A stretch of 60,746 bases of DNA from assembly GCA_001803395.1 (NCBI GenBank), contig MHBU01000001.1:26899-87644 (forward strand). The letters run 5' to 3'. This DNA comes from Methylotenera sp. RIFCSPLOWO2_02_FULL_45_14 (GTDB lineage: Bacteria > Pseudomonadota > Gammaproteobacteria > Burkholderiales > Methylophilaceae). The translations under genes were made by a program, and so were the position numbers. The notes under the pieces are model-generated. The model was not told where the DNA came from. It made no database searches and saw only the letters and a program-made list of their open reading frames with translations. This document shows, piece by piece, positions 525 through 47,718 of the stretch. Position 1 is the stretch's first letter; every line of letters begins with the position of its first letter.

Positions 525-685
525 CCGTATATTTGGCATTACTACCCCGTGCTTTGGCGTGTGAATAATGCGGTTTACCGCATATATTCCACGGACAAGC
601 CAAGTACTGGCTTACGCTCTGATACGCAATAAGAAATTTCCGTTTATTCATAGGCCGTATATTTGGCATTACTACCCCGTGCTTT
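525..685. repeat. 31-bp direct repeat duplicating the MazG-like gene 3' end
   Basis: The 31 bases at 655-685, which encode the KARGSNAKYT stretch near the C terminus of the MazG-like protein, are repeated identically at 525-555. Read on the minus strand, the downstream copy continues to its own stop as KARGSNAKYTEYL, against KARGSNAKYTAYE in the gene. The 99 bases between the copies contain a member of the palindromic repeat family also seen near 31.0 kb. Confidence 0.85.
557..614 (+). repeat. Palindromic repeat family, copy A
   Basis: The core starts GCGTGTGAATAATGC and ends TACTGGCTTA. It contains two hairpins: GCGG-TTTA-CCGC, extended by flanking A/T pairs, and AAGCCA-AGTAC-TGGCTT. It matches copy B (31008-31065, minus strand) at all but about nine of roughly 58 positions, and the differences in the first stem are compensatory. 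It lies between the duplicated 3' ends of the MazG-like gene. Confidence 0.75.
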
Positions 686-997
686 ATCCACAGGATATTT
701 TTTTGCATTCAATTCAATTTTCTGATTGGTAGCTTCAATCAAATCAATTTCTAACACTTCTGCGATTCGCAACAAATAAACAAAAGTATCTGCCAGCTCG
801 TGGCTAACTGCCTCTCGCTTTTCTAACGTTAACTGCTGACTCTCTAGCGGCGTATCCCACTGAAACTGCTCGACTAATTCAGCAGCTTCCACAATCATCG
901 CCATCGCTAGATTTTTAGGTGTATGAAATTGCGCCCAGTCACGCTCTGCCACAAAAGCATCGAGTCGTTGCCTTAGTTCTACCAGTGAATCAGCCAT
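644..997 (-). CDS. MazG-like nucleotide pyrophosphohydrolase
   Basis: Small (117 aa) all-helical pyrophosphatase of the MazG/RS21-C6 superfamily, which hydrolyses (d)NTPs to monophosphate plus PPi and cleans up non-canonical nucleotides. The metal-binding helices are visible as EAAELVEQFQW (about residues 36-46) and HELADTFVYLL (about 66-76), with the paired acidic residues expected of the family. The C terminus KARGSNAKYTAYE probably differs from the ancestral one, because a second version of this end lies just downstream. Substrate preference cannot be read from sequence. It is a stand-alone gene next to the rlmL operon and on the same strand. Confidence 0.85.
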   Translation of the reverse strand: MADSLVELRQRLDAFVAERDWAQFHTPKNLAMAMIVEAAELVEQFQWDTPLESQQLTLEKREAVSHELADTFVYLLRIAEVLEIDLIEATNQKIELNAKKYPVDKARGSNAKYTAYE

Positions 998-1033
998 CGT
1001 TTACTCCTTGCGATTCGCCTATTTTTGGATAAG

Positions 1034-2203
1034 CTATTTTCTATTACTTCCAGCCACCATTTTAATTTCAAACAAACGGCACTCTAATGAGCCATTAAAT
1101 AATGGCGTGCGTTTACTTGGCGTCAGGCGCATCAACTTAGGCATGGTCAAGTCATTGGTCAAAAAATAGGTGTTCCAGCCTGCAAACTTACGTTTTAGAG
1201 CTTCGCCTATTTTGGGATAGAGTAAGCTCAACTCTTCGTTGTCACCAATACGCACGCCGTAAGGTGGATTAGCGACTAGCACACCGTGATCTGCTGGTGG
1301 AATGACATTCACTATATCAACATGTGCCACTTGCACCGCCTCTAGCAACCCCGCCGCCTCTAAGTTCTGCTTAGTCACGCGCACTGCACGTAAATCAATA
1401 TCTGAACCATATATTTTTTGAAAAATAACTTTTTTAACTTTACCTAAAGCCTGATTTTTTATTTTCTTCCAAGTGTCTGATTCAAATGTTTTCAGTTTTT
1501 CAAAACCAAAATCTCTTTTAAGACCTGGCGCCATGTCTAACGCCAGCATAGCGGCTTCTAATAAAAATGTACCGCTACCGCACATCGGGTCTAATAAGGG
1601 CTGACCAACCTGCCAGCCTGTTAACTTTAAAATACCAGCCGCTAAATTTTCACGCAGAGGCGCTTCAATGCTCGCCCCACGATTACCACGCTGATAAAGC
1701 GCAGCACCTGAAGTATCCACATAATATTGATACTCATCTGCCGTTAAATAAGCATGAATACGCACTGCTGGCGTTTTAGTATCGATATAGGGACGGCTAC
1801 CAACAGCTTGCCTAAATTTATCACACACGGCATCTTTAATTTTTAAAGTCGCAAACTCAAGGCTTTTGAGTGGGCATTTAACACCGGTGACCTTAACCAT
1901 AAAGTCATGTTTTACATCAAACCATTGTGGCCAATTCATTTTATAGGCAGCATCAAATAAGTCTTCTTCATTCAGATACTTACCGCGCCCTACTTGCCAC
2001 ATAATACGTGTAGCAATACGTGAATGTAAATTGGCGGCATAGCACACCGCCCAATCACCATCAAAGCTCACGCCGCCATCAGTAGGCTTGATAGATTTAG
2101 CGCCGACTTGTAACAGCTCATCTGCCAACAACTGTTCTAGGCCACGTGGGCAGGTTGCAAAATATCGATTAGGAGGTTGTAGTTGCATACTATTCAGTGC
2201 CAT
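1034..2203 (-). CDS. rlmL: RlmL-type THUMP 23S rRNA guanine-N2 methyltransferase
   Basis: S-adenosylmethionine-dependent RNA methyltransferase resembling the N-terminal half of E. coli RlmL (m2G2445 of 23S rRNA). It has an N-terminal THUMP RNA-binding region (about residues 45-155), a SAM-binding motif LLDPMCGSGTFLLEA near residue 205, and the catalytic motif NPPYG near residue 310, typical of base-amino methyltransferases. At 389 aa it lacks the RlmK half that is fused in gamma-proteobacteria. It is the last gene of a three-gene minus-strand operon, three bases after the preceding stop. The ATG at the annotated start is followed by a second Met five codons later (MQLQPPNRYFAT), which could be the real start. 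Confidence 0.85.
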   Translation of the reverse strand: MALNSMQLQPPNRYFATCPRGLEQLLADELLQVGAKSIKPTDGGVSFDGDWAVCYAANLHSRIATRIMWQVGRGKYLNEEDLFDAAYKMNWPQWFDVKHDFMVKVTGVKCPLKSLEFATLKIKDAVCDKFRQAVGSRPYIDTKTPAVRIHAYLTADEYQYYVDTSGAALYQRGNRGASIEAPLRENLAAGILKLTGWQVGQPLLDPMCGSGTFLLEAAMLALDMAPGLKRDFGFEKLKTFESDTWKKIKNQALGKVKKVIFQKIYGSDIDLRAVRVTKQNLEAAGLLEAVQVAHVDIVNVIPPADHGVLVANPPYGVRIGDNEELSLLYPKIGEALKRKFAGWNTYFLTNDLTMPKLMRLTPSKRTPLFNGSLECRLFEIKMVAGSNRK

Positions 2204-2206
2204 AAA

Positions 2207-46481: not shown

Positions 46482-46587
46482 CAAAGCAGTTTTTCGGTGT
46501 AGGCTAACTCGCAACGCGATGTTAAGTGCGAAGCGCGGCTGAAGCCAAAAAACTGCTTGGATGTTACGCAGTTTATTAGAAAAATAG
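46441..46587 (+). repeat. Duplicated 3' end of dps
   Basis: The last 41 bases of dps (46441-46481) recur at 46547-46587 with five mismatches. Both copies read [12 protein letters not shown] followed by TAG, so every difference is synonymous. Between them lie 65 bases containing an inverted partial copy (AAGCAGTTTTT) of the same stretch, so the segment can fold back. The second copy has no start codon and is not part of a longer open frame. Confidence 0.85.
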
Positions 46588-46662
46588 TTTGCTTGAGAAA
46601 CATATCAACCAACCCAACATCAACGTTACAACACTCATTAAGAATCAAGAAAGCAATAAATC

Positions 46663-47622
46663 ATGGCAACACGTCACATTCACTTACTTATTTTAGGCTC
46701 TGGTCCTGCAGGTTACTCTGCGGCAGTTTATGCAGCACGTGCCAACCTTAAGCCAGTTTTAATCACTGGTATCGCACAAGGTGGTCAGCTCATGACTACC
46801 ACTGAGGTCGATAACTGGCCAGCAGATGCTGATGGCGTGCAAGGCCCGGAACTCATGGCACGCTTTCAAAAACATGCTGAACGCTTTAATACTGAAATGA
46901 TTTTTGATCATATTCACACCACGCACTTAGCTGAAAAACCCATTCGTTTAGTGGGTGATAGTGGTGAATATACTTGCGATGCGCTGATTATTGCAACGGG
47001 CGCAAGTGCTAAGTATTTGGGTATTCCGAGTGAAGAAAAGTTTAGCGGAAAAGGTGTTTCAGCTTGCGCCACTTGTGATGGATTTTTCTATCGCAATCAA
47101 GAAGTTGCCGTCATCGGCGGTGGTAATACCGCGGTAGAAGAAGCGCTATACCTGGCAAACATTGCGAGCAAAGTCACACTGGTGCATCGCCGCGATAAAT
47201 TCAAGGCCGAAGCCATTTTAGTGGATAAACTAATGGCGCGCGTGAAAGAAGGAAAAATTGTATTAGAAACATTCCAGACACTAGATGAAGTGTTAGGCGA
47301 TGACAGCGGTGTAACAGGCATGCGCCTCAAAAACGTAAACGCGGATAGTGATGATTTTGGCACCACTAAAGACATCAAGTTAATGGGCGTATTTATTGCC
47401 ATTGGCCACAAACCCAATACTGATATTTTTGAGGGTCAACTGGAAATGGAAGGCGGCTACATTGTAACCCAGATGGGTCGTGCGGGTAATGCTACTGCTA
47501 CTAGCGTACCCGGCGTTTTTGCAGCGGGTGATGTACAAGACCATATTTATCGCCAAGCCGTCACTAGCGCTGGCACTGGTTGCATGGCTGCATTGGATGC
47601 GGAACGTTATTTGGATAAATAA
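46663..47622 (+). CDS. trxB: Thioredoxin reductase
   Basis: FAD- and NADPH-dependent flavoprotein (319 aa) that reduces thioredoxin. The FAD loop [17 protein letters not shown] lies near the N terminus, the redox-active CATC motif in [11 protein letters not shown] near residue 137, the NADPH loop [15 protein letters not shown] near 155, and the FAD-closing [10 protein letters not shown] near 285. It should support the thiol peroxidase encoded at the start of the window. A long perfect inverted repeat begins eight bases after its stop codon. Confidence 0.96.
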
Positions 47623-47629
47623 CTCATGA

Positions 47630-47718
47630 TGTAGGAGCGGATTTCACTCAGAATAATGCGCTTTAGCACATATATTATGTGGGGAAGCGCATTATTCTGA
47701 GTGAAATCCGCTCCTACA
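47630..47718. repeat. Long perfect inverted repeat, copy C of the palindromic family
   Basis: Two perfect 34-bp arms (47630-47663 and 47685-47718) beginning TGTAGGAGCGGATTTCACTC face each other across a 21-base centre. The inner part GAATAATGCGC-TTTA-GCACATATATT resembles the first hairpin of copies A and B, and the arm sequence GATTTCACTCAGAAT recurs in copy B. It lies between trxB and the Smr-domain gene. Confidence 0.88.

Follow-up and report, generated by a model that had tools for sequence, protein, structure and literature searches.

Short palindromic repeats are common in bacteria, and both their route of insertion and their targets are poorly known. A 60,746-nt stretch of contig MHBU01000001.1 from Methylotenera sp. 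RIFCSPLOWO2_02_FULL_45_14 (positions 26,899 to 87,644; hereafter the window) raises the question at three loci, here called copies A, B and C, for which a preliminary description had claimed one shared palindromic structure. What is this structure, and how did it come to lie where it does? The explanation that we favour, with somewhat more belief than doubt, is a mobile element of about 58 nt, non-autonomous and without a gene, that inserts 3' of a T, preferentially at hairpin apexes, and moves as a folded single strand; the first candidate for its mover would be a RAYT (repetitive extragenic palindrome [REP]-associated tyrosine transposase) supplied in trans. Other genomes, contigs and loci are cited below by our own handles (G, C and L numbers), the genome of the window being G000.

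A search of the window with the pattern GAATAATGCNNTTTANNGCAT, allowing up to three mismatches, gave four matches (A, B, and C on both strands) where 0.57 were expected; none of 100 shuffled sequences reached four. A covariance model (R1) was built from five copies: the three of the window and two, one of them cut short, from contig C13. This model yields 21 matches in the same genome at E ≤ 1e-3, equivalent to about 20 places, with copy C counted on both strands and two of the places overlapping on opposite strands. Across the genus Methylotenera, R1 found copies in 38 of 41 genomes including G000 (304 matches at E ≤ 0.01), and a second covariance model, R2, found them in 46 of 150 genomes and 8 of 24 genera of a family-level sample. 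R2 gave no copies in 273 other genomes sampled across the class, although absences in the family and class scans are not firm, as the filters there were stricter and only some of the candidates were scored. Both models recognise this sequence group and not every element of equal architecture. Two patterns searched in viral contigs gave no match, and no account of the family was found in the literature searched, which included Methylotenera together with REP and barely covered subscription journals. Thus A, B and C are copies of one family, with many further copies in the genome and its relatives. The loci are those originally described, with slightly different boundaries (A at 556-613, B at 31009-31087 and the unit of C from 47645).

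To define the unit we aligned 108 cmsearch matches from 100 of 104 family loci (the 15 strongest places in G000, and 85 of 89 loci from relatives), the copies being drawn from the better-scoring matches and not at random. Removal of duplicates, cut copies and odd lengths left 102 rows for the boundary count, 97 for the tag test and 95 for the junction-stem and whole-fold tests; an earlier, looser stem test had kept 93 of the 108. The unit consists of two abutting hairpins: HP1, of about 41 nt with the apex loop TTTA, and HP2, of about 17 nt, which ends at the last base of the element. From its first base to the end of HP2 it measures 58 nt in 74 of the 102 copies and 57 nt in a further 19 (57-58 nt in 93), and base 1 pairs with the base preceding HP2 in 97 copies, against 50.8 expected from composition. 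The closing pair in these 97 is C-G in 57, G-C in 37, T-G in two and T-A in one. As base 1 closes HP1 and the length is nearly constant, the unit comprises HP1 and HP2 with flush ends; the letters of its linker and right end are variable.

Both stems covary, in line with the earlier claim that paired bases change together: 17 of the 21 base pairs show changes on both sides, and 92.3% of cells are paired, a share that drops to 80.0% if the partners are reassigned (none of 500 shuffles was as high). Cells with a double change number 239 against 57 with partners reassigned, and pairing falls to 25-48% when partners are shifted by 1-3 columns; these covariation counts are biased towards the structure, since a related one guided the alignment, and they are inflated by kinship among the sequences. 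A structure-only scan, which required a T, an HP1 with TTTA or TTCA, an HP2 and a length of 56-60 nt, found 29 distinct apexes in 874 kb (partly overlapping loci plus the window) and none in each of 10 shuffles; most of these apexes are the known family, since the loci scanned had been fetched for it. The scan also yields siblings with unrelated stem sequence (e.g. L048, L083 and L156), so that the architecture rather than the letters seems to be conserved, which points to recognition of shape.

The base 5' of the unit is T in all 102 copies (TTT in 68 and CTT in 19), a constancy that was not built in, because the start of the unit was set at a fixed offset from the stem and not by the T. The base 3' of the unit is A in 69 copies, G in 24, C in five and T in four. 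Orthologous loci show the site of copy B without its insert: among the matching loci we took 20, that of G000 included, and in 17 of the 19 from relatives the flanks are joined and uninterrupted, reading GATTTA (8), GACTTA (5), GATCTG (2), GATTTG (1) or GACCTA (1). Relative to these empty sites the window has 79 additional bases at the site and, separately, lacks five bases nearby; GATTT precedes the insert and A follows it, with no target duplication. Copy A is likewise absent from the orthologous place in the relative G007, and none of the 23 relatives' loci displayed for copy C (of 24; L266 was unmatched) shows the unit when read by eye. Filled and empty paralogues also occur within G012: in L156 a unit of 57-58 nt, unrelated in its stem letters and equal in architecture, occupies the HP2 loop of a host, and L157 and L158 have this host without an insert; L032 and L045 form a second filled and empty pair. 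The copies, the covariation and the presence or absence at orthologous sites together support the mobile non-autonomous element that had been suggested as one reading of these repeats.

Many copies sit in the apex of another palindrome (hosts are listed in the table below). An exact stem of at least 6 bp spans the junction in 19 of 95 copies, compared with 17 of 1156 TTT^A sites (^ marks the point of insertion) in the loci that carry them and with a mean of 1.5 and a maximum of 6 of 95 when flanks are dealt anew. In the looser test the count was 26 of 93 copies, the mean with flanks dealt anew being 6.4% (maximum 15%). A frequent host, which we call family X (CATACGACTTTGCAAGTGC-TTTA-GCACTTAGCAAATCGGAGTACC and variants; also at L201), has two hairpins of its own and is probably a sibling family. 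One nested pair of units recurs as a single block of 114 nt with three different sets of flanks, those of two X hosts and of one GTAG REP, which suggests that the nested pair moved as one. Beside a RAYT fragment on contig C34 (L325, 161-355) four levels can be read by eye, a GTAG repeat enclosing X, X a C-type unit, and this in turn an inner unit. Since the family offers exact boundaries, a constant 5' T, an empty site in orthologues and a preference for apexes that can be measured, hairpin loops become testable as insertion targets.

These features allow the three copies in the window to be read in turn. Copy A lies between a gene ending at 484, which we take from its translation to be tpx-like, and a MazG-like gene (644-997, minus strand), and would be an intact unit that entered after CTTT within a duplicated gene end. 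Among 19 relatives' loci, nine have the 31-nt motif that is repeated here once only, and none was found in the remaining ten. Within 525-685 of the window its direct repeats enclose copy A and a further 41 nt; in G007 the repeat is single and is followed by other gene sequence.

Copy B, 79 nt on the minus strand, interrupts phhB (pterin-4a-carbinolamine dehydratase), a gene broken twice in the window, by the insertion and by an additional stop; an intact relative matches PF01329 with E 6e-26 and the window fragment with E 1.5e-6. The preliminary description regarded B as fused from pieces of both other types. Both types are present, and their arrangement is better read as a nested insertion: a C-type unit would have entered phhB at TTT^A, an A-type unit would then have inserted after the outer unit's own CTTT, and the outer unit would later have lost its right half, an outcome to be expected of recombination between two AAGCCAAATACTGGCTT stretches. 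The mosaic palindrome is explained in this way as nested insertion and not as random fusion. In L270 (G047), the most similar relative at this locus, phhB is likewise broken, with other DNA in its middle.

Copy C is a C-type unit in a GTAG REP. From AAGC on, its right half repeats its left half and the REP arm in inverted order, a pattern that a switch of template at that point would produce; its 43-nt arms are 93% complementary. The arm said to be shared by B and C needs a different reading on the C side, where it consists of the GTAG REP host and the left half of the unit copied in inverted orientation.

Table. Features of copies A, B and C in the window, and palindromes that host the unit at loci elsewhere (^, insertion point)
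Feature	Position or loci	Strand	Remarks
Copy A, intact 58-nt unit	556..613	+	HP1 556-596, HP2 597-613; inserted after CTTT
31-nt direct repeat, first copy	525..555	+	3' end of MazG-like gene; ends exactly at unit start
31-nt direct repeat, second copy	655..685	+	In present 3' end of MazG-like gene
Copy B, inner unit of A type	31009..31066	-	58 nt
Copy B, left end of C-type unit (CACTCAG...GCTTT)	31067..31087	-	21 nt; inner unit in its HP1 loop; right half missing
Broken phhB interrupted by B	30890..31260	-	Extent approximate; further in-frame stop
Copy C, left 44 nt of C-type unit	47645..47688	+	HP1 and first 4 nt of HP2
Inverted copy of C left half and left REP arm	47685..47718	+	Replaces HP2
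GTAG REP host of C, left arm (GTAGGAGCGGATTT^)	47631..47644	+	L245, L246 and L250 have GTAGGAGCG-type repeats here without unit
GTAG REP host of C, right arm (^AAATCCGCTCCTAC)	47704..47717	+	
Hosts: own HP1 loops	L040, L068, L071, L094, L101		
Hosts: own HP2 loops	L032		
Hosts: GTAGGAGCG REPs	L036, L076, L093, L096		
Hosts: ATTCC...GGAATGACG repeats	L086, L105, L136		
Hosts: CCCTTCGACAAGCTT...AGGGAACG repeats	L041, L131		
Hosts: second two-hairpin family X	L037, L039, L074, L145		

Other repeats were noted in passing. The window has at 40191-40245 an inverted repeat with CCTTCGACAGGCTCAGGGA, of the kind that hosts the unit at L041 and L131, and at 46441-46587 two 41-nt direct repeats that are 88% alike and lie 106 nt apart from start to start. 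In several genomes the unit lies within a larger repeat (CGTTGC...AACCTCG.TGTATA...TTCCGTGCGCC) that these genomes share (L156-L158, L161, L237 and L238).

In the mechanism that we propose, the element would insert 3' of a T, preferably at TTT^A, and leave the target unduplicated. Its favoured sites would be the apexes of other hairpins, among them those of GTAG REPs and the loops of HP1 and HP2 in its own kind, with nesting of copies as the result. The moving form may be a folded single strand that is cut and joined by HUH/Y1-type chemistry, its fold rather than its sequence being recognised, and RAYT proteins supplied in trans are proposed as the first candidate for the mover. RAYT genes are present in the genome of the window, on contigs C33, C31 and C24, with a fragment on C34 (NF047646). 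Because PF01797 undercounts RAYTs (the C31 gene falls below its cut-off, yet matches NF047646 with E 9e-52), the genus was searched again with NF047646. Genomes in which a RAYT exceeds the cut-off (18) have a median of 10.5 copies, and those in which none does (23) a median of 3 (P = 0.004), in a comparison that ignores kinship and in which some genomes counted as without have weaker matches below the cut-off. These values supersede medians based on PF01797, which were 8 (24 genomes) and 3 (17 genomes; P = 0.047) and, among genomes at least 90% complete, 9.5 and 4 (P = 0.026), and which likewise ignore kinship. A copy lies beside the RAYT gene in four of 41 Y1 loci at E < 1e-5 (L025, L198, L201 and L203), and a second search found copies at four of 24 loci, three of them the same genes and the fourth, L325, picked for its known copy. 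Copies adjoin RAYT genes or fragments in G000 (C33 and C34), G028 (on both sides), G047 and G039. The RAYT-type transposase that the preliminary description had in mind is thus encoded in the genome; evidence that RAYTs move the unit did not emerge.

Several candidates for a mover were set aside. When the three Y1 genes of G000 were read with their flanks for a transposase adjoining copies, the C33 gene proved to have a sibling unit in its GTAG REP and the C31 gene to have no unit. Fourteen regions, six of which surround partial matches considered as possible left ends of a gene-bearing element, proved by eye to contain HP2-like hairpins or nested units. The 1.5-Mb genome G158 has 29 matches, several of equal score, and was considered as bearing an insertion sequence that ends in the unit; in the 12 regions examined there are instead REP composites related to one another, and the case is one of passenger amplification. 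On contig C24, a 283-aa RAYT-like gene (L028) has GGGGTCAGGTCTTGCA-type inverted repeats, which are not the unit, and resembles the transposases flanked by terminal inverted repeats in PMC3733652. An R2 match was absent from the loci of the best IS200-type matches (L008, L009, L010, L019, L190 and L191) in a search that was not exhaustive.

A number of observations weigh against the favoured explanation. We found no gene-bearing version of the unit. Among genomes at least 90% complete the medians are 10 (15 with RAYT) and 4 (12 without; P = 0.10), genomes in which no RAYT exceeds the cut-off account for 108 of the 304 copies, and neither G012, with 17 copies, nor the one-contig G044, with seven, has a match to PF01797 or NF047646. 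The RAYT-adjacent copies in G028 and on contigs C33 and C34 lie inside GTAG REPs, which accompany RAYTs anyway. REPs of the RAYT type have GTAG or GTGG at the hairpin foot, according to PMC6006769; neither tetranucleotide lies 0-2 nt 5' of the foot of HP1 in any of 97 copies, and where one precedes HP2 (23 of 97) the letters belong to the 3' strand of HP1. As to the apex preference, the whole-fold test gives a weak excess of junctions in loops (43 of 95 compared with 128 of 439, P = 0.003), from copies that are not independent, some of them sharing host repeats. Two of the 19 relatives' loci do not show the site of B and are uninformative, L270 having other DNA in the middle of phhB and L282 matching in part. 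The insert at A relative to G007 is 130 nt, of which the unit accounts for only 58, and the 31-nt repeat and the 41-nt stretch are not explained by simple insertion. At the C locus, only some relatives carry the GTAGGAGCG-type repeat.

Part of this evidence would suit the same mobile element driven by something other than a Y1/RAYT protein, perhaps since lost from many genomes, a variant that we regard as possible and rather doubtful. The copies in G012 and G044 speak for it, as do the closed-hairpin ends and variable last letters of the unit, which are unlike the guide and target tetranucleotides of IS200/IS605 in PMC6006769. Copy number is, however, higher in genomes with a RAYT, and no candidate enzyme of another kind was found, none having been systematically sought. 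We consider it improbable that the unit is not mobile alone and is a passenger of larger repeats (REPs, family X and composites of about 200 nt), spread with the help of recombination. Such carriage fits the related composites of about 110-207 nt that hold the 12 loci examined among the G158 matches, and the larger shared repeat around the unit in G012 and G177, but it leaves unaccounted for copy B, which has an exact boundary and sits by itself in a coding gene, the same T^ boundary in many unrelated hosts, and the nesting of units within one another.

The preliminary description had also allowed for selection on a folded RNA or a DNA cruciform as an alternative to a mobile non-autonomous element. 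A mobile family resembling REPs or miniature inverted-repeat transposable elements (MITEs) is what the data support, and a selected folded RNA is not. Strong covariation is what a regulatory RNA or terminator with a host function would show; nevertheless, B disrupts phhB, units lie in the loops of other repeats, and Rfam gave for eight loci just three matches, all below the gathering score and none at a unit, so that we hold this explanation to be very improbable. The chance that the three similarities are fortuitous short matches is negligible, given the shuffles, the further copies in this genome and across the genus, and the covariation. The element that we favour, moving as a folded single strand, may belong to something wider. 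To this broader proposal we give not quite even credence: two-hairpin elements without tags would form a superfamily whose members, recognised by their fold alone, move as folded single-stranded DNA into the T-rich apex loops of other hairpins, including their own, and hairpin families would grow by self-nesting, through an undescribed enzyme or an undescribed mode of a known one.

One close comparison is with GTAG REPs and REPINs and their RAYT (TnpAREP). These, like the unit, are short folded non-coding repeats of similar size and many copies, whose letters vary between groups with the fold kept and whose RAYT genes are in the same genome. Besides lacking the tag, the unit differs in consisting of two unequal hairpins in series with flush ends, and in inserting into the apex of REPs themselves. 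The ends of IS200/IS605 elements and of their non-autonomous derivatives share with it hairpins at both ends, a fixed 5' target, the lack of target duplication and a single-strand logic. PATEs are non-autonomous IS200/IS605 derivatives of this sort. In the unit, by contrast, the hairpins are terminal and not subterminal, HP1 closing at base 1 (97 of 102). Guide and target tetranucleotides are described for IS200/IS605 in PMC6006769; the variable linker and right-end letters of the unit are unlike the guide and the right-end target, and no tnpA-bearing relative was found in a search that was not exhaustive. The classical MITE differs as well, in that the ends of the unit, by eye, are not inverted repeats and there is no target duplication at B.

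In PMC3733652, REPs are of GTAG and CGTC kinds, the latter without a known transposase. The unit resembles CGTC REPs as a palindromic repeat without a known dedicated transposase and differs in that its ends, by eye, have no terminal CGTC (TGTC, CCTC) tag; repeats that we label CGTC-like serve as its hosts. That paper also reports REPs within other palindromes in three species, the nearest published precedent for nesting that we found. Gene-bearing insertion sequences that target REPs, and IS110/IS1111, are also reported to prefer repeated or palindromic targets (PMC1525189, PMC11187229); the unit, in contrast to these, is about 58 nt of two hairpins with no gene. The family is distinguished from the REPs of PMC3733652 by its tag-less two-hairpin unit, its constant 5' T and its self-nesting.

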